From Planctomycetota bacterium (GTDB lineage: Bacteria; Planctomycetota; UBA1135; GCA-002686595), in contig JAPLOF010000057.1 in NCBI GenBank assembly GCA_026692665.1, positions 36,045 through 100,044 on the forward strand: DNA of 64,000 nucleotides, read 5' to 3'. The notes beneath the pieces were generated by a model that was given only the letters and a program-made list of their open reading frames with translations, did no database searches and was not told where the DNA came from. Below are positions 33,120-47,021 of this stretch, in pieces; within the stretch, counting starts at the first letter, position 1; each line of letters starts with the position of its first letter. Made by a program: the position numbers and the translations under genes.

Positions 33120-34238
33120 ATGCCTTTCAGCCACGGTTCTGGTTCCAACGCGGTCGCCGTCGGGGGGCGGTCGAGCGCGCTCGGGACGGCGATCGCCGGC
33201 CTCCTCGTCCTCCTCTTCGTCACCGGCTGCCGCAGCACGCCGAAGCCCCCCACCGACGAAGCCGCGCGAGCTCCCGCACCCTACGCGCGGCCCCAGGACG
33301 ATGCCGTGCCCGCGTGGCTCGGCGAGCCGCTTTCCTGGGAGAAGCTGGCGCGCGTCGAAGCCTGGCTCGGAAATGAGGGCCGGTCGGCGACGCCGCAGTG
33401 GCGCAACGAGGCGGAGCTCGTCCTGAACTCCGGCCGGCTCGAGTTCGCGCGCCGCGAGCTCGAACGCAGTACGGAGCGGGACGCGGACAAGGAGGCGGCC
33501 CGCGTGGCCGCGGTCGCGCCGCGCCTGCGCACGGCGAAGGGCGGGTTCGACCGCCTCGTCCTGCGCGACGACCTGAACGCCGGGCAGCGCAAGCGCGCGG
33601 AGGACGGCGCCGCGCGCGCCGAACGCCTGCTGGCCCGCACCCCCGTGGCGAAGAAGGCCACCAGCATGCCGCTCGTCGCCCGCGCGGATTGGGGCGCCAT
33701 GAAGGCCAAGCCGGGGTTGATGGACCGCACGGTCGGCGCGTACTCGCGGATCACGGTGCACCACTCCGCGGACAACGACCCGGTCGTCCTCGACGGCAGC
33801 GCGGCACGCACGTACGAGGCGATGCGCGACATCCAGCGCGCGCACATGAACGGCAAGGAGACGCACTACGGCGACATCGGCTACCACTTCGTGATCGACC
33901 CGTACGGTCGCGTGCTCGAAGGTCGCGAGCTCGCCTACCAGGGCGCCCACGCGAAGGGCGACAACAACGTGCGCAACATCGGGATCTGCCTCATCGGAAA
34001 CTTCGACGAGGAGAAGCCGACGGACGCGGCGCTCACGGCGTTGCGGCGACTGATCGACGACCTGCGCACCAGGTACTCGATCGCGCGCAACATGGTCTAC
34101 GGCCACCGCGACCTGCGCAGCACGCGCTGTCCGGGCGAGAACCTCGCGCGCTGGGTGATCAGCTACCGCGGCGGCCCGCCGGGCGCCGTCACGGCGCAGG
34201 CGGCTGCGCCGCGCCGTCCGGCGCGAACCGGCCGATGA
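33120..34238 (+). CDS. N-acetylmuramoyl-L-alanine amidase / PGRP domain lipoprotein
   Basis: Lipobox LLFVTGC; ITVHHSADND, GDIGYHFVIDPYGRVLEGREL, GICLIGNFD, VYGHRDLRSTRCPGENL. Confidence 0.92.
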   Translation: MPFSHGSGSNAVAVGGRSSALGTAIAGLLVLLFVTGCRSTPKPPTDEAARAPAPYARPQDDAVPAWLGEPLSWEKLARVEAWLGNEGRSATPQWRNEAELVLNSGRLEFARRELERSTERDADKEAARVAAVAPRLRTAKGGFDRLVLRDDLNAGQRKRAEDGAARAERLLARTPVAKKATSMPLVARADWGAMKAKPGLMDRTVGAYSRITVHHSADNDPVVLDGSAARTYEAMRDIQRAHMNGKETHYGDIGYHFVIDPYGRVLEGRELAYQGAHAKGDNNVRNIGICLIGNFDEEKPTDAALTALRRLIDDLRTRYSIARNMVYGHRDLRSTRCPGENLARWVISYRGGPPGAVTAQAAAPRRPARTGR

Positions 34239-36342
34239 CCTCGGCCAGGCCCTCCGAGCGGACGGGCTTGGTCAGGTACTCGTCCATCCCGGCGCCGAGG
34301 CACCGTTCGCGGTCGCCCTCCATCGCGTTGGCGGTCAACGCCACGATCGGCACGCGCTCGCCCGTGCGAGCCTCGCGCTGACGGATCAAGCGCGTCGCCT
34401 CGAGACCGTCCATGACGGGCATGGAGAGGTCCATGAGCACGAGCGCGTAGCGGCCGCTGTCGTAGCGCTGGAGCGCGACCGCGCCGTTCTCGGCCAGGTC
34501 GACGTTGCAGCCGAGCTTGCCGAGCATCTTGGCCGCGACCTTCTGGTTGACCGGGTTGTCCTCGACGAGGAGGACGCGAACGCCGGGCCCCGGGGGGCTC
34601 TTGGAATGCGCGGCGGCGGTCCAGACGCCGGCGCCTGCGGTTGTCGCGGGCAGCGGCGGCGCGGGCTCGAGAGGAGCGTCCTTGGATGCGCTGGCGCCCG
34701 GCGTCCCTGGAAATGCCGGGGCCCCGATCGCCGAGCCGGGAGTCGTCGGAGCGTCCGCTCCGAGCGCGGAAGTCCCCTCGGCGGAAGCAGGTCCAGCGAT
34801 CTTCGCGGCCCCGTCGTTCGGCGCGCGGTCGAGCACCACCGTGAACCAGAACACGCTGCCGCGGCCGAGTTCGCTCTCGAAGCCGATGCTGCCGTTCATC
34901 ATCTCGGCCAGGCGGCGAGCGATGACGAGTCCGAGGCCGGTGCCGCCGAAATTGCGCGTGATCGTGCCATCGGCCTGGGAGAACGGCTGGAAGATGCGAG
35001 CACGGCTGGCGTCCGAGATGCCCACGCCCGTGTCCGTCACGGAGAAGCGCAGCTCGATGCGGCCGGTCTGATGGCCCTGCACGCCGACCTGAACGTCCAC
35101 GCTCCCCTCGTTGGTGAACTTCAGGGCGTTCCCAACGAGGTTCACGAGGATCTGGCGCAGGCGTGTCGGATCGGCCATCACGCGCGCGGGCACGGACGGC
35201 TCGACGTGTTGCGTGAGAGCGAGTCCCTTCTGCGCGGCCGTGTGGCGGAAGAGCTTCAAGACCTCCCCGACCAGCGCGCGCGTATCGAGCGACGTGGGCA
35301 CGAGGTCCATCTTGCCGGCATTCAGCTTCGAGAAGTCGAGCACGTCGTTGACGATGACGAGCAGCGCCTCGGCCGATCCACGGACGGTCTCGGCCGCATC
35401 GCGCTGTTCCTCGTCGAGCGGCGTCTGCATCAGGAGATGCGTCATCCCGATGATGCCGTTCATCGGCGTGCGCAGCTCGTGGCTGACCGTGGCGAGGAAC
35501 TCGTCCTTGGCCTTGTTCGCCGCGTTGGCGGCGCGGAGGGCCTTGGCGAGGTCCTCCAGGGCCTTGTCCTTGATGACGCCCAGGCGCTCGAGCTCCGTGT
35601 TGTTGGCGCGGATCTCCGAGTAGGAAGCGCGCAGGTTCTCGCGCATCCCGTCCAAGGTGTGCGCGAGCCGCCCGATCTCGTTGTTGGCGCTGGCCTCGAG
35701 GGGCGTCTCGAGGTCGCCGCGACCGAGCGCGGATGCATGTCGGTCCAGCAGCTCGAGCGGGTACGCCACCTTGCGGCGCAGGAGGTACGAGAGCACGAGC
35801 CCGATCACGACGAACGAGACGCCTGCCTCGAGCGCGAGGATGCGCGTCCGTTGCGCCTTGAGCTCCGTGAGGCTCTGCACGGAGAGCCCGAGGTGGATCC
35901 TCCCGACGTGGATCGGCTCCATCGGGTCCTCGCCGGGCGCGGTCTCGAAGATGGCGAACGACTCGGCGACGTACTGCCGTGAAGTCTCCACGCCCGTACT
36001 GGCGTCCCCCGGTTTCTGGAAGACCTCGAAGATCTTCGTCCCGTCGAGCTTCTCCGCGCGTGCGTAGACCACGTCGGGATCCCGTTGCGGGAGCGCCCGG
36101 ATGATCGTGTTGATGCGTGGGTAATCCGTGCCCAGGATCAGCTCGCCGCATGAGACGGCGCCGAGTTCCGCCAGCGCCTTCCCCCGCGCATCGAGCTGCT
36201 CGGAGAGGAGCTGCTCCTCGCTCCGCAGGGTGTGGACACTCGTGAGGACGAGACCCAGCGACAGGACGAGCAGCGTCGCCCCGATGAGCTGGACGCCGAG
36301 CCGCCCGTAGCGGCGTGACTCCGGTCGCTTGGTCTCGTTCAC
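34189..36342 (-). CDS. Hybrid sensor histidine kinase with C-terminal receiver
   Basis: TM-periplasmic-TM-HAMP; FLATVSHELRTPMNGIIGMTHLL; HATPase FGGTGLGLVIARRL; receiver VLLVEDNPVNQKV...LVLMDLSMPVMDG. Confidence 0.95.
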   Translation of the reverse strand: MNETKRPESRRYGRLGVQLIGATLLVLSLGLVLTSVHTLRSEEQLLSEQLDARGKALAELGAVSCGELILGTDYPRINTIIRALPQRDPDVVYARAEKLDGTKIFEVFQKPGDASTGVETSRQYVAESFAIFETAPGEDPMEPIHVGRIHLGLSVQSLTELKAQRTRILALEAGVSFVVIGLVLSYLLRRKVAYPLELLDRHASALGRGDLETPLEASANNEIGRLAHTLDGMRENLRASYSEIRANNTELERLGVIKDKALEDLAKALRAANAANKAKDEFLATVSHELRTPMNGIIGMTHLLMQTPLDEEQRDAAETVRGSAEALLVIVNDVLDFSKLNAGKMDLVPTSLDTRALVGEVLKLFRHTAAQKGLALTQHVEPSVPARVMADPTRLRQILVNLVGNALKFTNEGSVDVQVGVQGHQTGRIELRFSVTDTGVGISDASRARIFQPFSQADGTITRNFGGTGLGLVIARRLAEMMNGSIGFESELGRGSVFWFTVVLDRAPNDGAAKIAGPASAEGTSALGADAPTTPGSAIGAPAFPGTPGASASKDAPLEPAPPLPATTAGAGVWTAAAHSKSPPGPGVRVLLVEDNPVNQKVAAKMLGKLGCNVDLAENGAVALQRYDSGRYALVLMDLSMPVMDGLEATRLIRQREARTGERVPIVALTANAMEGDRERCLGAGMDEYLTKPVRSEGLAEVIGRFAPDGAAQPPAP

Positions 36343-36351
36343 CTGGTGGGC

Positions 36352-37227
36352 TCAGTTGCCGACCACCGACTCGAAGACCGCCGCCTTCTTCATGCCTTCA
36401 CGGACGAAGTCGTACTCGGCATCGGAGGTCGGCATGAAGCCCGAGATCTTCAGCTCCTTCAGGGCGGCCTCGTCCTTCAGGCCGTAGAAGGACGTCTGCA
36501 CCGCCGTGAAGAAGGCGGGGTCGAATCCGGCGCGCGCCACGATCGGCTTCGTCACGTTGTCGAACTCGGCCAGCTTCCGCAGCGTGCCCTTGTCGGCGTA
36601 TTTCTTGAACGTGCTGGCCTTGACCGACCCGGCTTCGAAGTCGCCGAGCTCGACGGCGCCCGCGACCTGGTCGTGGCGCTCCATGTACTTGAACGACGCG
36701 AGGTCCTTGGCGTGGATGCCGTGGTCGACGAGCTGCGCCTGGACGAGGTAGCGGCCGATCGTGGAGTTCTTGTCGCCGAACGCGAAGCGCTTGCCGCGCA
36801 GGTCCTCGATCGTCTGGATCGGGCTGTCCTTCTGCACCACGATCACGCCCTTGAAGCGCTTCTCGCCCTTCTCGTGCTCCATCGCGACGAGCTGGATGTT
36901 CGGGTTCTTCTCCTTCGCCGTGACGTAGGACGCGGGCCCGAAGTGGACGAGGTCGACCTGTCCGTCCACGAGCGCGCGGATGCCGTCGTCGTAGCTCTTG
37001 AAGATCGTGAGCTGGATGTCGACCGGCCGACCGAGCTGATGGCTCATGTCGTCCTGGATCGCTTCCAGGACCGGCGTGAACATCTTGTACATGACCGTCG
37101 CCTTGTCGGTCTGGTAGACACCGAAGGTCAGCGACAGCGTTTCCGCGCTCTTGTCCTTGGCCTGGGCGAAGGTCGGGGCACCGAGACAGCCGAGCGCGAG
37201 GGCGCCGAGAGCGGCGAGGCGGATCAT
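36352..37227 (-). CDS. PhnD-like phosphate/phosphonate periplasmic substrate-binding protein
   Basis: Signal peptide; FGVYQTDKATVMYKMFTPVLEAIQDDM, GQVDLVHFGPASYVTA, FAFGDKNSTIGRYL. Confidence 0.88.
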   Translation of the reverse strand: MIRLAALGALALGCLGAPTFAQAKDKSAETLSLTFGVYQTDKATVMYKMFTPVLEAIQDDMSHQLGRPVDIQLTIFKSYDDGIRALVDGQVDLVHFGPASYVTAKEKNPNIQLVAMEHEKGEKRFKGVIVVQKDSPIQTIEDLRGKRFAFGDKNSTIGRYLVQAQLVDHGIHAKDLASFKYMERHDQVAGAVELGDFEAGSVKASTFKKYADKGTLRKLAEFDNVTKPIVARAGFDPAFFTAVQTSFYGLKDEAALKELKISGFMPTSDAEYDFVREGMKKAAVFESVVGN

Positions 37228-37552
37228 GGGGAGGTTCCTGGGGACGATGCGGAGGGTCGGAGATCGGGACAGACCCGATCCGGTCCCCGGGTCATCGGCC
37301 GGAACCCCGCCGGGGCTTGACCCGCCGGGTCCACTCCCTCCCGTTCCCAGTCCGGAGGCGCCGCGGCCCGGGGACTGCGGGGGCGGAACCTCCCCCATCA
37401 AGAAAGAGTGAAAAGGCTGCCACGCCCCATGGAGGACTTCCGGAAGCGGGATGCCTGCTCTCTGCCCGGAGGGCCTGCCCGCTCGCTCGGCGATTGCGAG
37501 TCCCAACGTGACCACACCCTCGATCCCGTCCCAGCCCGGTTGCCTGCCCAGT

Positions 37553-40500
37553 ATGGTCGATCGGATGCTGGGGTCCGCAATCGGCCTCTGCAGCCTCTCG
37601 TGCCTCGCCTGGGCGATCCCCTCGCCCGACGTCATGGTCAACCTGTTCGCCAGTTCGGCCCAGGTGCTGGGACTCGTGAGCGTGGTGCTCGGCCGGTGGC
37701 TGTGGGTGCGCAAGAAGCGCGGGTCCACGGCAGCCAACGGCCGCGGCTACCGCGCGGCCTTCGCCGTCGCCCTGGCGCTGTGCGCCGTGAGCAGCATCGG
37801 CTGGGGCCTCTACGCGGCCAAGGTCGCGGACGATCGGAACACCCGGCTCCAGGTCAACCTGACCCGCAACTCCAGCGAGGAAGGGAAGAAGATCGTCGAC
37901 GTCTCCCTGCGCGAGCTGTCCTTCAGCAAGCAGCTCGACCGCAAGGACGGCCTCCCGACCGACGAGCTCCTGCGGCGCATCGAGGCCGGGCAGTTGGGCC
38001 AGGTCATCGACGTGCGCGAGGACGAGGAGTTCGAGGTCGGCGCGATCGAGGGCGTGGCGCACGCGCGATTCCCGGACGTGCTGGCCGACGCCGACCGCTT
38101 CATCGATCGGGCGATGCCCGTCACCCTCCTGTGCTTCAACGGGAACCGCAGCTCGGAGCTGGCGGAGGAACTGCGCAAGCGCGGCTTCTCGACGTCCTTC
38201 CTGATCGGCGGCTACGAGAAGTGGATCGCCGAGAATCGCCCGATCGCCTTCAACCTCGATCGCGAGCGCCGCGACCTGCGCGAGATCCCGGACTACCCGA
38301 ACAAGGACATCCTCCTCGACACGCCCGACGTGCAGCAGCTCATGGCGGAACGCGAGATCGTGTTCCTGGACGTGCGCTATCCCGGGGACTTCGAGACGCT
38401 GGGCCACCTGCCGGGCGCGATCAACATCCCGTTCCGCAAGCTCACGACGCCGGAGCTGGACGCCGCTCTCGCGGCGTTGCCGAAGAAGCCGGTCGTGGTG
38501 CCGTGCTACGACAAGCGCAGTTCCTTCTTCGGTCTCGTGGTCGGCCTGCGCCTCTCGCGCATGGGCCACGAGTTCCTCGGACGCTACACGGTCCCCGAGG
38601 GCTTCGCGGTCGCCGGGAACGAGAAGGCCCACGTGGCGGCGTGGAAGGCCGCGCAGGAGAAGCAGACGATCCTGTCCATCGTCGCTCAGCCCCTCGCCGG
38701 CGCCCTCACGTGGAGTCAGTCCCACGCGGGATCGTTGGCCGCGGCGATCCTCCTCCTGGTTCTCCTCGTCCGGCTCGTGATCCTGCCCCTCACGGCCCGC
38801 GCCGAGCGGGATCGCCGTGCCGAGCTGGCGCTCCGGCCCGAGATCGACGCGCTCAAGGCGCGCTTCCGCGACGATCCGGCGTCGCGCTCCAGGGCGACGA
38901 TGGCACTCCTCGCCCGCCACGGCGTGAAACCGGCCTGGAACCTCGCCAGCGCCGTCGTGCAACTGGGGCTCTTCACGGTGTTCTTCAGCGTCGTGAGCGA
39001 AGCGAGCCGCGGATCGAGCGAGTCCTTCCTGTGGGTGCCGGAGATCGCAGCTCCCGATCCGACCTGGCTCCTGCCCCTCCTCGGCGCGGTCGCGACGGGC
39101 CTGCTCGTGTGGCTGCCCGCCGCGCACAAGACCTGGAAGCGCGCACTCGGATCGGTGGCTGCTGCAGCGGCGCTCCTGGCCCTCGTCGCCCAGCTCTCGG
39201 CCGGCGCCCAGCTCTACCTGGCCGCCAACTTGTCGATCCTCCACCTCCACAACGCGCTCGTCGGTGCGTGGCTCGGTTGGCGCGCGCGGGCTCCCGAGCG
39301 TCGGCGCCTGACGATCGAATCGCGCTACCGGCACGCGGCCGTGGTCCCCCTGCGCCATGCTCACCTCATCGAGGGCTGCGGCGCGAAGGCCGCGCGCCTC
39401 GGGCGTCTCATGGAAGCCGGCCTGCCCGTCCCCGACGGGTTCGTGGTGCGCGCCAGCGCGATCACGGAATCCCGGCTCGAGAGCACCGTCCGCGCAGCCG
39501 TGCTCGAGTCCCATGCGCGGCTGGGCGCGACACGTGTCGCGGTGCGCAGCTCGGGCGTGAACGAGGACGGGGCCGACAAGAGCTACGCGGGGGTCTTCGA
39601 GTCGATCCTCGACGTCGAGCTCTCGGGCCTGGAGAAGGCGATCGAGGACGTGGCTCGCTCCTGGCAGGGAGCGCGCGCGGGTGCGTACTCGCAGGGAGCC
39701 CCCGAGAGCGGCGGCATCGTCGTGCAGGCGATGGTTCCCGCGGCCTGGGCGGGCGTGCTCTTCACCGAGCACCCGGGCGAGTCGGGAACGTGCGCGATCG
39801 AGATGGTCGAAGGATTGGGCGACGAACTCGTCTCCGGGCGCCGTCAACCGCACGGGTTCCGCCTCGGCCGCACCAGCGGACGTCCGCTCGAGGGCGAGCG
39901 CCCGCCGATCGACCTGGCACCGCTCTTCGCGCTCGGCCGCCGGGTGGAGAAGCTGTTCGGGAAGCCCCAAGACGTCGAATGGGCCTACGCGGACGGGCGT
40001 TTCCTCCTGTTGCAGGCCCGCGACGTCACGCGCTTCTCGCGTCTCGGTTCGGACGAGCGCGCGCTGCGGGAACGCGAGCGGCACCGCCTCCTCGAAATCC
40101 TGGACGGCGCTCCGGCCGACGACGCGGTGCTCGTCCAGAACGAGCTGTCCGAGCTCCTGCCCGAGCCGACCCCGCTCTCGCTCTCGCTCATGGAGGCGCT
40201 CTGGAACCACGACGGTGCCGCGCACCGCGCGTGCAGCGCGGTGGGGATCCCCTACGAGGTCACGCCGGACTCCGCGCCACTGCTCGTGACGGCGTTCGGG
40301 AAGCTGTACGTGGACGAGCGCGAATCCCGCCGGCGCGTCTCGCGCGGACCGTCCGCTCTGGCCGCGTTCCAGCTGGCGCGGTCCGCCGACCGCATGGAGC
40401 AGTCGTGGCGCGAGGAGCACCTTCCCCGCGCCCTCTGCGCCGCGCGTCTGGACGCGGCACTCGACCTGGATCGCCTCGATCTGGCCGAGCTCGTCGCTCT

Positions 40501-41800
40501 GTTCCGTGAACGCACGCGCCGCTTCGTCGAGGAGGACTACGCGCGCGCCGAGGAGATCAACGTCGCGGCCGACGTCTACCTGAAGACCGCGATTCGCGGC
40601 CTCGAGCGCGTGGGAGCCGACGCGGCGGAACAACTGACTCACGTCCCCACGACCGTCGTGCAGGAGGCGGCACAGATCCTGGGCCGCCTCGGGCGTCACG
40701 AGGTCCCCGCCTCCGAGTTCCTGGCCCACTCGGGCCACCGTGCGCCGCACGATTGGGAACTCGCCTCCGCGCGCTACGCCGAGGACGAGGACCTCGTCGC
40801 GACGATGGCCGAGCGCAGTGTCGGCACGCTGCCGCGCTCCGCACCGGCACGCAGTCCCTTCGGGCGGCGCATCCTCGACCTCGCGGTGGAGCGGGCGCTG
40901 CACTGGCAGGCGCTGAAGGAGGAGGCGAAGCACCTCGCACTGCGCGAAATCGGTTTCCTGCGCCGCGTCCTGGTCGCGATCGGCGAGCGGGTCGGCATCG
41001 ACGATCGCATCTTCCTGCTCCGCGTGGACGAGGTCTCCCGACTCGATGACGACGCCTGGCGCGGCGGGCGCGCTCTCGAGATCCTCGAAGCGCGGGCTGA
41101 CGAGCGGGACGCGCTCGACTGCGTGCGCCTGCCGTCCTGCCTGAGCGCGACGTCGCTCGAGCAGCTCGACCTGCAGGCTCCCGGAGCGGTGCCCCGCCCG
41201 GTGCCCCTCGGCGCGATGCGCGGCACGCGCGTCTCGGGCACGTCCGGCGTGATCGGCCGTGCGCGCGTGTTGCGCCACGCGGACGAGATCGACTCGTTCC
41301 AGGACGGCGAGATCCTCGTGGCGCGCTTCACGGATCCGACCTGGATGCCGCTCTTCCCGCGCGCCCGCGCGATCGTGACCGAGGTGGGCGGCTGGTTGTC
41401 GCACGCCGCCATCCAAGCGCGCGAGTACGGGCTGCCCGCGGTCGTCGGCGTGCGCGGCGCGCTCGATTCGATCCAGACGGGCCAGGTCGTGCGGCTCGCG
41501 CCGGACGGCACGGTTGAAGTCCTGGGTGAGCGTCGGCGCGAAACGCGGGTCCCGACCTCCATCGCGGTCGTCGTCCGGCGATCCCGTGGCGAGATCCAGG
41601 GCACCATCGGCAATGTCTCGTCGAACGGAGCCCTGCTGCGCATCTCGGGCGGCAAGCTCGAGCTCGGCGAGGAGCTCTCCATCGAGATCTCCGCGGGCCT
41701 GGCGCATCCGGCCACGGTGGTCCGCAACGGCGTCCCCGGCATCTACGGGCTCCATCTGGCGCAGCCGACGCTGCGGGATTCGCTCGCTCGCGCGGGCTGA
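37553..41800 (+). CDS. Multidomain membrane protein: rhodanese-rhodanese-YidC/Oxa1-like-PEP/pyruvate-binding dikinase-phosphohistidine-PilZ
   Basis: One uninterrupted frame (ORF 37451-41800). Rhodanese 1 VIDVREDEEF..LLCFNGNRSS; rhodanese 2 FLDVRYPGDF..VPCYDKRSS; YidC-like RLVILPLTARAERDRRAELALRPEIDALKARFRDD; ATP-grasp GCGAKAARLGRLMEAGLPVPDGFVV, VAVRSSGVNEDGADKSYAGVFESIL, PQDVEWAYADGRFLLLQAR; His domain EVGGWLSHAAIQAREYGLPAVVGV; PilZ RRETR..GNVSSNGALLRI. Start 37553 or 37565. Confidence 0.88.
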   Translation: MVDRMLGSAIGLCSLSCLAWAIPSPDVMVNLFASSAQVLGLVSVVLGRWLWVRKKRGSTAANGRGYRAAFAVALALCAVSSIGWGLYAAKVADDRNTRLQVNLTRNSSEEGKKIVDVSLRELSFSKQLDRKDGLPTDELLRRIEAGQLGQVIDVREDEEFEVGAIEGVAHARFPDVLADADRFIDRAMPVTLLCFNGNRSSELAEELRKRGFSTSFLIGGYEKWIAENRPIAFNLDRERRDLREIPDYPNKDILLDTPDVQQLMAEREIVFLDVRYPGDFETLGHLPGAINIPFRKLTTPELDAALAALPKKPVVVPCYDKRSSFFGLVVGLRLSRMGHEFLGRYTVPEGFAVAGNEKAHVAAWKAAQEKQTILSIVAQPLAGALTWSQSHAGSLAAAILLLVLLVRLVILPLTARAERDRRAELALRPEIDALKARFRDDPASRSRATMALLARHGVKPAWNLASAVVQLGLFTVFFSVVSEASRGSSESFLWVPEIAAPDPTWLLPLLGAVATGLLVWLPAAHKTWKRALGSVAAAAALLALVAQLSAGAQLYLAANLSILHLHNALVGAWLGWRARAPERRRLTIESRYRHAAVVPLRHAHLIEGCGAKAARLGRLMEAGLPVPDGFVVRASAITESRLESTVRAAVLESHARLGATRVAVRSSGVNEDGADKSYAGVFESILDVELSGLEKAIEDVARSWQGARAGAYSQGAPESGGIVVQAMVPAAWAGVLFTEHPGESGTCAIEMVEGLGDELVSGRRQPHGFRLGRTSGRPLEGERPPIDLAPLFALGRRVEKLFGKPQDVEWAYADGRFLLLQARDVTRFSRLGSDERALRERERHRLLEILDGAPADDAVLVQNELSELLPEPTPLSLSLMEALWNHDGAAHRACSAVGIPYEVTPDSAPLLVTAFGKLYVDERESRRRVSRGPSALAAFQLARSADRMEQSWREEHLPRALCAARLDAALDLDRLDLAELVALFRERTRRFVEEDYARAEEINVAADVYLKTAIRGLERVGADAAEQLTHVPTTVVQEAAQILGRLGRHEVPASEFLAHSGHRAPHDWELASARYAEDEDLVATMAERSVGTLPRSAPARSPFGRRILDLAVERALHWQALKEEAKHLALREIGFLRRVLVAIGERVGIDDRIFLLRVDEVSRLDDDAWRGGRALEILEARADERDALDCVRLPSCLSATSLEQLDLQAPGAVPRPVPLGAMRGTRVSGTSGVIGRARVLRHADEIDSFQDGEILVARFTDPTWMPLFPRARAIVTEVGGWLSHAAIQAREYGLPAVVGVRGALDSIQTGQVVRLAPDGTVEVLGERRRETRVPTSIAVVVRRSRGEIQGTIGNVSSNGALLRISGGKLELGEELSIEISAGLAHPATVVRNGVPGIYGLHLAQPTLRDSLARAG

Positions 41801-41913: not shown

Positions 41914-43023
41914 TCAGTTCGCGCGCGCGCCGAGACGCTGCCGCAGCAGGCTCGCCCGCAGCCGATCGCGCTCGCTGGCCTCGACGAGGGTGGTCCCGAT
42001 CTCCTCCTGCAGGAGGGCCTGCACGTGCCCCTTCTGCACCTGCACGCCGAGCTGGTTCAGGAGCGCGAGCTTGGGCTCGGTGATGAGCTCGAGCTCGAGT
42101 CCCAGCCGCAACGTCGAGAGATGCGCCAGGGCCTGGTCCGTCTGCAGCGCACGAGCCGTGCGCAGGAGCCCCTGGCTGCGCTGGATCCGGTCCTGCAGCG
42201 CAGACTTCCGCTCGTTCGCGAGGATCTGCCGCAGGTCGCGCTCGAAGCGCACGATCGCCGGGACGAGGGCCTGCAGGTCGGCGACCAGTTGCTCCTCGCT
42301 GCGGCCCAGGGTGATCTGGTTCGAGATCTGGTAGAAGTCCCCCGCCGCGCGGCTGCCTTCTCCGTACATGCCGCGCACCGCGAGCCCGGTGCGCTGCGCC
42401 GCGGCGAAGACCTTCTCGAGCTCGCTGCGCACCAGCGACAGCGCCGGGAGGTGCATCATCACGGACGCGCGCAGTCCCGTTCCGACGTTCGTCGGACAGC
42501 CGGTCAGGTAGCCCAGCATGCGCGTGTGAGCGAACGGGATGCGCGCTTCGAGCATCCGGTCGAGGTCCTGCGCCTTGCGCCAGGCCCGGCTGAGATCGAA
42601 CCCGCTCGCCAGCGCCTGCAGGCGCAGGTGGTCCTCCTCGTTGACCATCGCCGCGATCGTCTCGGACGCGCCGAAAGCGACCGCACGCCCCGGCAGCGCG
42701 GCCTGGCCGTCCTCGGAGGGCGCGAGGTCCCGGCTGACGAGGTGGCGCTCGCGCAGCACCACGCGCAGGAGGGGGCTGGCTTCGGCCATCGACACCCACT
42801 GGGTCTCGCCGTCGAGGCGCGCGGCGACGAGTTCCTCGCGCAGGCGGGCGCACAGGTCCGTCGCCTGCCGGGGGTCCATCCGCGCGACGAACGGCAGGCC
42901 GTCGACGTTGCGCGCGAGGCGCACCCGGCACGAGACCACGACATCGGACTCCGGTCCTGTGGAGGCGAGCCAGGAGCCGACGCGTTCGGCGAAGCGGCGG
43001 AGGTCGATCGGGGGAGGCGTCAT
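41914..43023 (-). CDS. mcsB: McsB-type protein arginine kinase (ATP:guanido phosphotransferase)
   Basis: VVVSCRVRLARNVDGLPF, NEEDHLRLQ, YLTGCPTNVGTGLRASVMMHLPAL; C-terminal RDRLRA matches RDxxRA. Confidence 0.92.
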   Translation of the reverse strand: MTPPPIDLRRFAERVGSWLASTGPESDVVVSCRVRLARNVDGLPFVARMDPRQATDLCARLREELVAARLDGETQWVSMAEASPLLRVVLRERHLVSRDLAPSEDGQAALPGRAVAFGASETIAAMVNEEDHLRLQALASGFDLSRAWRKAQDLDRMLEARIPFAHTRMLGYLTGCPTNVGTGLRASVMMHLPALSLVRSELEKVFAAAQRTGLAVRGMYGEGSRAAGDFYQISNQITLGRSEEQLVADLQALVPAIVRFERDLRQILANERKSALQDRIQRSQGLLRTARALQTDQALAHLSTLRLGLELELITEPKLALLNQLGVQVQKGHVQALLQEEIGTTLVEASERDRLRASLLRQRLGARAN

Positions 43024-43081: not shown

Positions 43082-44866
43082 TCAGGGGAGCGGCGGCTTC
43101 GGTCCGAGCGCGCGCCGCAGCGACTTGGCGCGGCTCCGCAGATCCGTGCGCAAGGCCATGATCGTGCGGTCCTGGTCCTGGAGGATCCGCGCGACGCGCG
43201 CCAACTCGGCATGCGCGCCCTCGAGTCGCTGTTGTTCCACGTTGCGCTCGTGCAGCGCCGTGGCGAGCTCCCCGCGCAGACTCGCGGCTTCCGCGCGGGT
43301 GTCGCGCAGCGCTCCGCGGTGGCCTTCGAGATCCTGCGAGAGGTCGCGCCCGACCGCGCGGTGCTCCGCCAGCTCCCTGTCGCGTGCGGCGAGCTCCTTG
43401 TCGCGCGCGGCCAACTCGCGCTCGAGTGCGGCCACGCGTTGCTGCGCCGACGCGAGCCGGACCTCGCTGGCCGCGAGGAGTTCGCGAGTCCTATCCGCCA
43501 GGTCTCTCGTCGCCCGCACCGCCTCGCGTTCCAGGGCCAGCTCCGTGCGGCACTCGGCCAGCGCCGCGCGGTGACCGACCAGGTCGGCGCGTTCCGACTC
43601 GAGGACCTTGCGTGTCGCCGCCAGCTCGCCCCGTTCCTCGGCGAGCGTAGCCCGGTGTCCGTCGAGATCGGCCCGCAGCGCCGCGGCCTCGGCGGCCATG
43701 CGATCGACTTCGTTCTCGAGTCGGCCACGCACCTCGCGTTCGGCGTCGCGCGCGCGCTCGGCGGACGCCGCCGCGGCGCGCGCCAGCTCGAGTTCGCCGT
43801 CGAGTTCGGCCCGCATGCGCTCGGCGTCCGCGCGCGTGCGATGGACGTGCGCGCGCGTGAGCGCCAGCTCGTCGCGCAGCTGCGCCACGGAATCCCGGTG
43901 GCCGCCCAGGTCCTTCTCCAACGTCCGCGCGACCTCGCCGATGGCCGCGCGCTCGGCGCGCTCGACACGCAGCGATTCGCGGTGCCCGGCCAGGTCCTGC
44001 TCGAGCGTCCGGGCCATCTCCCACAGGCGCTCCCGCTCGATCGCCCACGCGGAGCGCGCGCGATCGAAGCCGGCGAGCTCGCCGATCACATCGTCGAAGC
44101 GCCCGAGCACTCCGGCCGGCGCGCGCGGCGCCGCCAGGCCCGGGACGGACGTCGGCAGCGGAGCGCCGCCCAGGGCTCCGATCAACGCGTGGCGATAGAC
44201 AGGCTGAGCATGATCGGACGCGTAGAGCTCGCCGTTGTAGAAGCGGAAGATGGACTTCGCGAGAGTGCGCAGTTCGGGCTCGTGGTCGAGATAGAGCGAC
44301 AGACACATGAGCGGCAGCCAGCGCTCCAGGTTGCCGTGTCCGATCGCGGAAGTCCGGGCACCGGCCTTCTCCAGGGCCGCGGCCGAAGCGGCCAGGTCCG
44401 GGAGTCCGTTGTGTCGATGCTCGTCCAGGTAGCGGTGCTCGACGCCGAGCTTGTCGCGCAGGAAACGCTGCAGCAGGCGCTCGGATTCGTCGACGGACGG
44501 CGATTGGTAGGGCCCGGCCAGCACGACCCACTTCTTCGAGACGCGGGCACACTCGGCCACGAAGGCCTCGCGGAAACGCGGCGGGACGTGCTCGAGGGTG
44601 TCGAAGGCCGCGACGACGTCGAAGGATCGATCGCGGTACGGCAGGCGCGCGCCGTCTCCGAGCACGAGCCCAGGCTCCTCGGAGGGGTCGACGTCCACGA
44701 GGAACACGCGGTCGGCGGGCAGGAACGCGCGCAGGTTCGCCGTGCGTCCCCCGACGTCGAGGATGGAGAGCGGCTTCGATCCCTCCCGCACGATCGCGAG
44801 CAGGTCGACGACGATGCGGTAGCGCTGGTACTGGTCGAACGGCAGTTCGAGCGGGTCGCGGATCAC
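43082..44866 (-). CDS. SAM-dependent methyltransferase with ~300-aa coiled coil (WbdD-like candidate)
   Basis: ILDVGGRTANLRAFLP..VDVDPSEEPGLVLGDGARLPYRDRSFDVVAAFDTLEHVPP methyltransferase; then continuous heptad-like region with five DLxGHRxxL/V motifs; start overlaps wzt stop. Confidence 0.85.
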   Translation of the reverse strand: MIRDPLELPFDQYQRYRIVVDLLAIVREGSKPLSILDVGGRTANLRAFLPADRVFLVDVDPSEEPGLVLGDGARLPYRDRSFDVVAAFDTLEHVPPRFREAFVAECARVSKKWVVLAGPYQSPSVDESERLLQRFLRDKLGVEHRYLDEHRHNGLPDLAASAAALEKAGARTSAIGHGNLERWLPLMCLSLYLDHEPELRTLAKSIFRFYNGELYASDHAQPVYRHALIGALGGAPLPTSVPGLAAPRAPAGVLGRFDDVIGELAGFDRARSAWAIERERLWEMARTLEQDLAGHRESLRVERAERAAIGEVARTLEKDLGGHRDSVAQLRDELALTRAHVHRTRADAERMRAELDGELELARAAAASAERARDAEREVRGRLENEVDRMAAEAAALRADLDGHRATLAEERGELAATRKVLESERADLVGHRAALAECRTELALEREAVRATRDLADRTRELLAASEVRLASAQQRVAALERELAARDKELAARDRELAEHRAVGRDLSQDLEGHRGALRDTRAEAASLRGELATALHERNVEQQRLEGAHAELARVARILQDQDRTIMALRTDLRSRAKSLRRALGPKPPLP

Positions 44867-46176
44867 GCGTCGGACTCCAGAGTCGAGACGCCCATGCCGG
44901 GCTGGTCGCGCACGACGCTCCAGCGCGAAGGCAGGAAGAGCATTCCGTGCTGCAGTCGCCGGACGTCGACGACGTCGAACGAGAGCACGTGTTCGCGGTG
45001 ATCGATCGCGGTCGGCGCCGCCTTGCCGTGGTCGTAGAGGAACGTGGTCAGGTAGAACGACCCCGAGAGCAAGGGGAGCGCGTCGAAGCGCATCTCGACC
45101 ACGCCCGTCTCGCCCGGGACGCAGTCCGCGATCTCGATCGGGCGCTCGCGCCAGTGGTGGTTCGCTCCGTTCACGTAGGTGCCGTCGCTGCGGTAGATCC
45201 CCAGGCCGAACACGGGGTTCGCCACGTGGCCGTGGACCTTGTAGCGGATCCGCACGCGGAACGGCTCGCCCGGCGTGAACACGAGCGACGGTTGTCCCGC
45301 GGGATCGAGCATCTCGACTTCGGTCGTCTCGATCTCGCCCGTCCCCCAGCGCGGGTACACGCTCGTGCCGCGGTCGTACGAGGACAGGCGCTCATTTCCG
45401 CGGGCTTTGGCGCGTTTCAGGTACTCGTCGGCGACCTTGGCGGCGCTGCCCTGCTCGAGCACTTCGCCGCGGTCGAGCAGGACGACGTGCTGACACATCG
45501 ACTTGATCGAGCCCATGTCGTGGCTGACGAAGATCGTGGTCTTGCCCTGCTCGCGGAACTCGTTGAGCCGGTTGACGCACTTGCCCTTGAAGTGCTCGTC
45601 CCCGACCGAGAGGGCTTCGTCGATCATCAGGATGTCCGGATCGACCGACGACGCGACCGCGAAGCCCAGGCGCACGTACATCCCTGAGCTGTACGTCTTG
45701 ACCGGCCGCTCGATGAAGTCGCCGAGCTCGCTGAAATCGACGATCTTCGGGAAGCGCTCGGCGATCTCCTCCTCGGACATGCCGAGGATCGAGCAAGCCA
45801 GGTGGATGTTGTCGCGGCCGGAGAACTCGGGGTGGAAGCCCGCTCCGAGCTCGAGCAGCGAGGAGACCCGTCCCTGTACGGCGACCTCGCCCGCGGTCGG
45901 AAGGGTGATACCCGTGAGCAGCTTCAGTAGCGTCGACTTGCCCGCGCCGTTCTCGCCGATGATGCCGACCGTCGAGCCGTGCGGGATGTCGAGGTAGACG
46001 TTGCGCAGCGCCCAGAACTCGCGGTGGAACTTCTTCCCCGGCAGGAGGAGTTCCCAGAGCCGGTGGATGGGCTTGTCGTAGAGCCGATAGGCCTTCCCCG
46101 CGCCGCGACACAGGATCGCGGAGCCGGAACTCCCCGACGCGAGCTGCGTCGGCTTCGTCGTCGCTACGGTGCTCAC
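44863..46176 (-). CDS. wzt: Polysaccharide ABC transporter ATP-binding protein with C-terminal Wzt carbohydrate-binding domain
   Basis: IIGENGAGKSTLLKLLTGI Walker A, YSSGMYVRLGFAVA signature, LMIDEALSVGD; C-terminal domain GTGEIETTEVEMLDPAGQPSLVFTPGEPFRVRIRY. Confidence 0.93.
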   Translation of the reverse strand: MSTVATTKPTQLASGSSGSAILCRGAGKAYRLYDKPIHRLWELLLPGKKFHREFWALRNVYLDIPHGSTVGIIGENGAGKSTLLKLLTGITLPTAGEVAVQGRVSSLLELGAGFHPEFSGRDNIHLACSILGMSEEEIAERFPKIVDFSELGDFIERPVKTYSSGMYVRLGFAVASSVDPDILMIDEALSVGDEHFKGKCVNRLNEFREQGKTTIFVSHDMGSIKSMCQHVVLLDRGEVLEQGSAAKVADEYLKRAKARGNERLSSYDRGTSVYPRWGTGEIETTEVEMLDPAGQPSLVFTPGEPFRVRIRYKVHGHVANPVFGLGIYRSDGTYVNGANHHWRERPIEIADCVPGETGVVEMRFDALPLLSGSFYLTTFLYDHGKAAPTAIDHREHVLSFDVVDVRRLQHGMLFLPSRWSVVRDQPGMGVSTLESDA

Positions 46177-47021
46177 AGGAGATCCGGAAAGCGCGGCTTT
46201 TGCCGCAGGAAGAAGACCGCACCGAGCGCGAACACGACGATCGCCACGCCCGCGAACGCCGCGACGACGGGCGGTTGCGGCCACAGACCGTAGATGAGCA
46301 CGCGGCGGTAGCTGTCGATCAGCCAGTACATCGGGTTGATCTTGAGGACCCACCCGAGCCCGGCCTTCTGGACCAAGTAAGCGGGGTAGAAGATCGGCGT
46401 CATGAACATGCCGACCATGAGCGCGACGCCCATGACGTGGTAGACGTCGCGCAGGAACAGGTTGAGCGCGCTGAAGAAGAATCCCAGCCCGATCGTGAAC
46501 ACGAGCTGGATCGCGAACAAGAGCGGCAACGCGACCAGCGTGTACGAGAACCCGAGTGCACGCTGGGGCGCCGGCGCGCCGGCCTCGGGCACGATCGGCG
46601 AGATCCAGGCGTAGAACGCGACGCCAATGAGCGCGATGGCGACGCCGATCAGCATGTTGACGAGCGCAGACACCCCCAGGTAGACGGGCAGGACTTCGGA
46701 TGGGAACACGACCTTCTGGATGAGGTTTTGGTTCTCGACCAGGGTGTTCGTCGAGCGCGACACGGTTTCCGCGAACGCCTGCCACACGAGGATTCCGGCC
46801 AGCATCAGAAGCGCGACTTCCTGATTGCTCTGCCCTTCGTCCCAACGTGACTTCATCACGAAGGTGAAGACGAACATGTAGATGACGAGGTTCAGCAGCG
46901 GGAAGATCACCGACCAGAAGAACCCCATGCTCGATCCGACATAACGCGCGCGCAGGTCGCGCCGCACCATGTCCTGGAGCAGTCGGCGGTTCTTCCGCAG
47001 GGATCGGATCAGGACCAGCAC
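46173..47021 (-). CDS. wzm: Polysaccharide ABC transporter permease
   Basis: VRRDLRARYVGSSMGFFWSVIFPLLNLVIYMFVFTFVM; NPMYWLIDSYRRVLIYG ABC-2 motifs; GTGA overlap with wzt. Confidence 0.92.
   Translation of the reverse strand: MLVLIRSLRKNRRLLQDMVRRDLRARYVGSSMGFFWSVIFPLLNLVIYMFVFTFVMKSRWDEGQSNQEVALLMLAGILVWQAFAETVSRSTNTLVENQNLIQKVVFPSEVLPVYLGVSALVNMLIGVAIALIGVAFYAWISPIVPEAGAPAPQRALGFSYTLVALPLLFAIQLVFTIGLGFFFSALNLFLRDVYHVMGVALMVGMFMTPIFYPAYLVQKAGLGWVLKINPMYWLIDSYRRVLIYGLWPQPPVVAAFAGVAIVVFALGAVFFLRQKPRFPDLL

Follow-up and report, generated by a model that had tools for sequence, protein, structure and literature searches.

What might a bacterium do with a single polypeptide that joins two rhodaneses, a YidC/Oxa1 membrane core, a dikinase and a PilZ domain? 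The question is raised by an open reading frame (ORF) in a 64,000-nucleotide stretch of a Planctomycetota bacterium genome (contig JAPLOF010000057.1; hereafter the window), whose product we call the fusion protein. Its domains, conserved catalytic residues, predicted topology, gene cassette and genome co-occurrence were established by computation. The results showed that the fusion is real, conserved and undescribed within the literature searched. Tentatively, and a little short of calling it probable, we read it as a membrane-embedded ATP-dependent phosphotransferase forming one system with a periplasmic anion sensor.

The open frame runs from 37451 to 41800 on the forward strand with zero internal stops. 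The ATG at 37553 is most likely the start codon, since both homologue starts and the conserved N-terminus 'AxA-IPSPD' favour it, giving a product of 1415 amino acids (37553..41800, forward, as are all its parts). Every domain exceeded its curated Pfam gathering cut-off: two Rhodanese copies (80 bits), 60KD_IMP (64.6 bits; cut-off 35), PPDK_N (115 bits), PEP-utilizers (76 bits) and PilZ (37 bits; cut-off 22.5). With AlphaFold and Foldseek in agreement, the initial annotation, which had read 37553-41800 as one intact ORF of these parts, was borne out, including its YidC and PilZ segments. A signal-like or transmembrane segment with 'AWA-IPSPD', of which IPSPD is conserved in the family, precedes two transmembrane helices separated by a predicted cytoplasmic loop rich in Lys and Arg (37553..37828; hydropathy and charge). 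Rhodanese 1 (37961..38230; Pfam, Cys conservation) has a CFNGNRSS loop with its Cys codon at 38132-38134, and rhodanese 2 (38318..38605; second Pfam stretch and model, with the limits of the initial annotation) has a CYDKRSS loop with its Cys codon at 38504-38506. A loop Cys had been reported in each; as a refinement, the first loop is a canonical CX4R and the second, CYD(K/R)R, is a CX3R loop one residue shorter. The YidC/Oxa1 core (38741..39232), with five transmembrane helices and its groove Arg codon at 38771-38773, was recovered by Pfam, Foldseek and a profile match (YidC 104.6 bits; OXA1L 55.9 bits). The dikinase begins with an ATP-grasp domain (PPDK_N; 39335..40040, limits approximate; Pfam and alignment to rifampin phosphotransferase, RPH) containing Lys612, Arg665 and E809...Q.R. 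It continues with a middle, acceptor domain like the rifampin-binding domain of RPH (40041..41290, limits approximate; RPH alignment and Foldseek), which contains Lys1122-Glu1123, and a swivelling phosphohistidine domain (41297..41497; Pfam and conservation), whose catalytic His1284 is encoded at 41402-41404, exactly where it had been placed. The PilZ domain (41528..41737; Pfam, Foldseek to BcsA-type PilZ) is variable within the family; in the window protein both cyclic di-GMP (c-di-GMP) motifs, RxxxR and [DN]xSxxG (here NxSxxG), are intact, as first read. No NCBIfam model reached its cut-off on the fusion protein, the RPH equivalog scoring 170.5 bits (cut-off 999) and yidC_oxa1_cterm 67.8 bits (cut-off 84.3).

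AlphaFold2 models of the N-terminal and C-terminal halves were made separately, and each was compared by Foldseek. The N-terminal-half model (predicted local distance difference test, pLDDT, 81.8; predicted TM-score, pTM, 0.53) matched rhodaneses and YidC (6al2/3wo6). The best solved fold for the C-terminal-half model (pLDDT 88.8, pTM 0.82) was RPH (E 5e-32), and its end matched the PilZ domains of cellulose synthases. TM-scores over entire halves were modest (0.2-0.5), which a different placement of the domains would lead one to expect. Neither Pfam nor Foldseek found a C-terminal phosphoenolpyruvate (PEP)/pyruvate TIM barrel, in line with the initial annotation, and membership of PpsA/PpdK is thereby ruled out. 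The layout had also been described as nearer to RPH or to glucan-water dikinase; the RPH half of that statement held, while glucan-water dikinase was absent among the matches of the fusion protein, and RPH is the closest relative of the dikinase part.

The fusion protein shares with RPH (Listeria 5fbs/5hv1) the order ATP-grasp, acceptor domain and C-terminal His domain, equivalents of RPH Lys22, Arg117, E-Q-R and His825, and an acid at the acceptor site (PMC4844700). In RPH-type enzymes ATP phosphorylates the swivel His, AMP and Pi are released, and the phosphate is passed to a small molecule; in RPH-Lm, R666-E667 is essential for transfer to rifampin (PMC4844700). Lys1122-Glu1123 aligns with this pair, which is Lys-Glu in the fusion family and invariant in 25/25 aligned members. 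RPH differs in being soluble and without rhodanese, YidC or PilZ, with about 20% identity to the fusion dikinase.

Topology was predicted from hydropathy segments and the positive-inside rule. The predicted order is a signal-like segment, two helices, about 308 amino acids with both rhodaneses, the YidC helices and the dikinase. By hydropathy, the rhodanese-bearing stretch sits between the third transmembrane helix and the YidC core, and by the positive-inside rule the basic first loop of that core lies on the cytosolic side. The rhodaneses are predicted to face the periplasm and the dikinase the cytoplasm. E. coli YidC carries a periplasmic P1 domain, and the rhodaneses of the fusion occupy the corresponding place. 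The fusion resembles YidC/Oxa1/SpoIIIJ proteins in its five-helix core, groove Arg and the basic loop that follows the first helix of the core on the cytosolic side, and differs from them in having two rhodaneses for the P1 domain and a C-terminus joined to a dikinase. The host genome has, on a different contig, a canonical YidC of its own, scoring 147.7 bits versus 70 for the fusion's YidC domain in an own-genome search, so the latter is an additional, diverged copy. The same genome has five PSD1 copies, against zero in 14 controls, which suggests that the host is planctomycete-like. The membrane-anchored dikinase of the initial annotation is thus supported by Pfam, conserved residues, hydropathy, the RPH alignment and Foldseek, while the membrane or envelope substrate proposed there stays putative.

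Residues were counted in 30 fusion homologues, denominators of 29 and 27 being the readable sequences. The Cys of rhodanese 1 was present in 30/30 and that of rhodanese 2 in 27/30; the YidC groove Arg was found in 30/30, and the groove Gln is also conserved. The ATP-grasp Lys, Arg and E..Q.R were kept in 29/29 homologues and the swivel His in 27/27. PilZ was absent from L004, L038, L039, L083-L085, L087 and L088; in others it was degenerate or not detected. Control by c-di-GMP, part of the reading in the initial annotation, is therefore no core feature of the family, where it is optional at most. An 853-amino-acid relative, L104 (7689-10250, reverse strand; genome G764), consists of the dikinase part only, without rhodaneses and YidC, and has Lys replaced by Asp, RSS by RSL, Gln by Lys and the catalytic His by Arg. 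Its gene comes immediately downstream of one for a sensor kinase of the type found beside the fusion, in a genome without a close binding protein, and looks like a pseudo-dikinase or remnant.

The same architecture was found in three or more bacterial phyla. Full-length colinear homologues were found in the same family (57, 53 and 41% identity), in the same order (43 and 38%) and elsewhere in the phylum, in other genera and families. Others came from a Nitrospiria metagenome-assembled genome, a Methylothermaceae one (truncated by the contig end) and further genomes of the latter's class (Gammaproteobacteria). The fusion is also carried by 81 plasmid records, those listed being Leisingera, Phaeobacter, Parasedimentitalea and Tritonibacter, annotated in PLSDB only as 'PEP/pyruvate-binding domain-containing protein'. 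Within the host's class it is patchy, occurring in 14/154 genomes and missing from the same-genus genome G001. The family tree joins the Nitrospiria protein to one from Gammaproteobacteria at a fully supported node; this grouping and the plasmid-borne Roseobacter copies fit horizontal spread. Dikinase matches L064-L069 in the phylum were excluded as members, as they comprise the dikinase part only and their ORFs begin there. No viral relative was confirmed, and literature searches of openly licensed papers returned none describing this architecture. An assembly chimera or decayed fusion, which the unusual domain mix alone would suggest, has a negligible chance of being correct: colinear full-length homologues with near-invariant catalytic residues in independent genomes of at least three phyla already refute it, and they exclude the frameshift or assembly join for which the initial annotation had allowed.

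Two genes lie divergently upstream of the fusion. The nearer (36352..37227, reverse) encodes a PhnD/PtxB/AioX-like periplasmic binding protein of 291 amino acids with an 'STIGR' motif (Pfam, co-occurrence and solved structures), and the second (34189..36342, reverse) a membrane hybrid histidine kinase with an N-terminal sensor region conserved in the cassette, HAMP, HisKA, HATPase and REC (Pfam). The initial annotation was silent on these partners, as on the predicted periplasmic rhodaneses and the wide family distribution. Among solved structures, the binding protein is closest to PtxB (phosphite), followed by ArrX and AioX, which are arsenic-oxyanion sensors signalling to kinases (PMC5908839). 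It shares with PtxB, AioX-AioS and ArrX-ArrS the PhnD fold, and its pairing is with a histidine kinase, with no permease or ATP-binding cassette (ABC) transporter in the cassette (PMC5700983, PMC5908839). Of the residues through which Te_PtxB contacts phosphite (PMC5700983), our alignment shows Tyr55, Ser130, Thr131 and His160 kept, whereas Ser132 has become Ile (STS to STI), Tyr100 Phe and the capping Tyr208 Lys. AioX uses Cys106, which has no equivalent here: the sole Cys lies within the signal peptide, and the mature protein is cysteine-free. Unlike for AioX/ArrX, no molybdoenzyme target lies near the fusion locus. The ligand is likely anionic; a phosphite-specific or AioX-type arsenite ligand is unsupported, as the pocket residues differ.

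The binding protein adjoins the fusion in 22/30 loci, in at least four arrangements, among them divergent, fusion-binding protein-kinase, binding protein-kinase-fusion and convergent. Among the eight loci without it, six genomes have a close copy (48-55%) elsewhere, beside a related kinase in 4/6. At L101 and in G505 the gene after that of the binding protein encodes a HAMP-PAS-GGDEF-EAL protein, with no histidine kinase in that place, and L102 has a kinase with a LuxR-type regulator. In two gammaproteobacterial genomes with the fusion (L101:6603-9128 and L125:4970-7417, both reverse), a HAMP-PAS-GGDEF-EAL protein thus stands where the kinase would be, behind a binding protein of the same type: one sensor with two kinds of output.

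At the genome level, the binding protein (E <= 1e-20) was found in 13/14 fusion genomes of the class versus 3/140 others (Fisher p 2.9e-15), and it occurred in 12/12 fusion genomes of the phylum sample versus close copies (45-52%) in 3/380 others (p 2e-20), p-values that overstate the association since kinship is uncorrected and some genomes share a genus. The two samples overlap (at least G000, G007, G022 and G051), and five more non-fusion genomes of the phylum with distant PhnD relatives (28-34%) were left uncounted. Clearly, the sensor is seldom missing where the fusion occurs, but it can be present where the fusion is not. A close binding protein with the fusion undetected was seen in G080, G015, G051, G215 and G235, followed by a related kinase in G080 and G015; these genomes possibly hold a different effector or are incomplete assemblies.

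PolA, ZnuABC, TRAP, porin, HupE and carbonic anhydrase neighbours were rejected as conserved context, each being confined to a single lineage. Just downstream of the fusion and convergent with it, the window encodes an McsB-like ATP:guanido phosphotransferase (41914-43023, reverse), which elsewhere is not conserved beside the fusion, and further on a Wzt/Wzm-like polysaccharide ABC exporter pair (44863-47021, reverse). A search for SoxZ, as a link to sulfur oxidation, gave no match in the 154 genomes, and the controls gave none either.

From RPH chemistry and the properties of the YidC/Oxa1 groove, we infer a phosphotransferase with a membrane-delivered acceptor. The cytosolic ATP-grasp domain would phosphorylate His1284 with release of AMP and Pi; the His domain would then swivel to the RPH-like acceptor domain and pass the phosphoryl group to an acceptor at Lys1122-Glu1123. 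That acceptor may be held in, or delivered from, the membrane by the YidC-type groove; grooves of YidC/Oxa1 cores are hydrophilic, handle polypeptides and also scramble lipids (PMC10491306). On the outer face, the tandem rhodaneses could link the enzyme with the chemistry of sulfur, persulfides or oxyanions. The PtxB/AioX-like protein and the kinase (in some Gammaproteobacteria the GGDEF-EAL protein) would sense an anionic ligand and set the expression or activity of the fusion, with the PilZ tail perhaps adding a c-di-GMP input in some lineages. The identity of the acceptor, the roles of groove and rhodaneses and the direction of control are all putative.

Several observations weigh against this phosphotransferase. 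The low pTM of the N-terminal-half model leaves the domain arrangement uncertain, the rhodanese-2 Cys is lost in three of the 30 homologues, apart from the sensor pair no neighbouring gene is conserved from one lineage to another, the association p-values are inflated, and L104 lost its catalytic residues yet stays beside a kinase, which suits a regulatory role. The main rival, which sequence does not separate from the phosphotransferase, is a regulatory phosphorelay, in which the rhodaneses would sense redox or sulfur state, the YidC-like bundle would transmit, and the phosphohistidine domain would modify a protein partner, possibly the REC domain of the hybrid kinase. The near-constant company of a sensory unit, the lack of a conserved response regulator beside the hybrid kinases and the degenerate L104 speak for it. 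So does M. tuberculosis VadK, a dikinase turned regulatory kinase, although VadK is PPDK-derived and the abstract on it describes no membrane or periplasmic domains (PMC13400623). We consider the relay unlikely all the same, as conservation of the middle domain and of its Lys-Glu site matches RPH, which acts on a small molecule, and a pure relay has no obvious need for a conserved acceptor domain of RPH type or for a pair of catalytic-type rhodanese loops.

The covalent tethering of an outside domain, a membrane core and an inside dikinase could also be read as group translocation, in which a rhodanese-bound extracellular anion or thiol compound passes through the YidC-like core and receives a phosphate once inside, in the manner of an ATP-driven phosphotransferase system (PTS). 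The relation of the phosphohistidine domain to PTS Enzyme I and the oxyanion type of the partner binding protein are in keeping with this, but that protein is paired with a kinase rather than a permease, and the YidC groove is open to lipid and cytosol and forms no solute channel, which makes such transport quite improbable. Least convincing of the functional readings, with a low probability, is a YidC core that works as a protein insertase with accessory domains. The groove Arg and Gln and the canonical five-helix core are conserved as this would require, yet the host's separate YidC is the stronger match, the dikinase replaces the C-terminal tail, and the co-occurrence with an anion sensor would be left unexplained.

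The membrane-embedded phosphotransferase would, if extended, define a new class of envelope machine, in which a YidC groove put to new use links, within one polypeptide, persulfide or oxyanion chemistry in the periplasm to the ATP-dependent phosphorylation, in the cytosol, of a substrate delivered by the membrane, under a dedicated anion sensor; this wider proposal is possible but doubtful. YidC/Oxa1 cores are known as protein insertases and, recently, as lipid scramblases, and a conserved fusion of one with a dikinase would put the fold to a new purpose. One sensor protein accompanies the fusion almost without exception, which offers a concrete way in to the signal, and the presence of the family, under a generic name, in culturable Phaeobacter and Leisingera makes its function directly testable.

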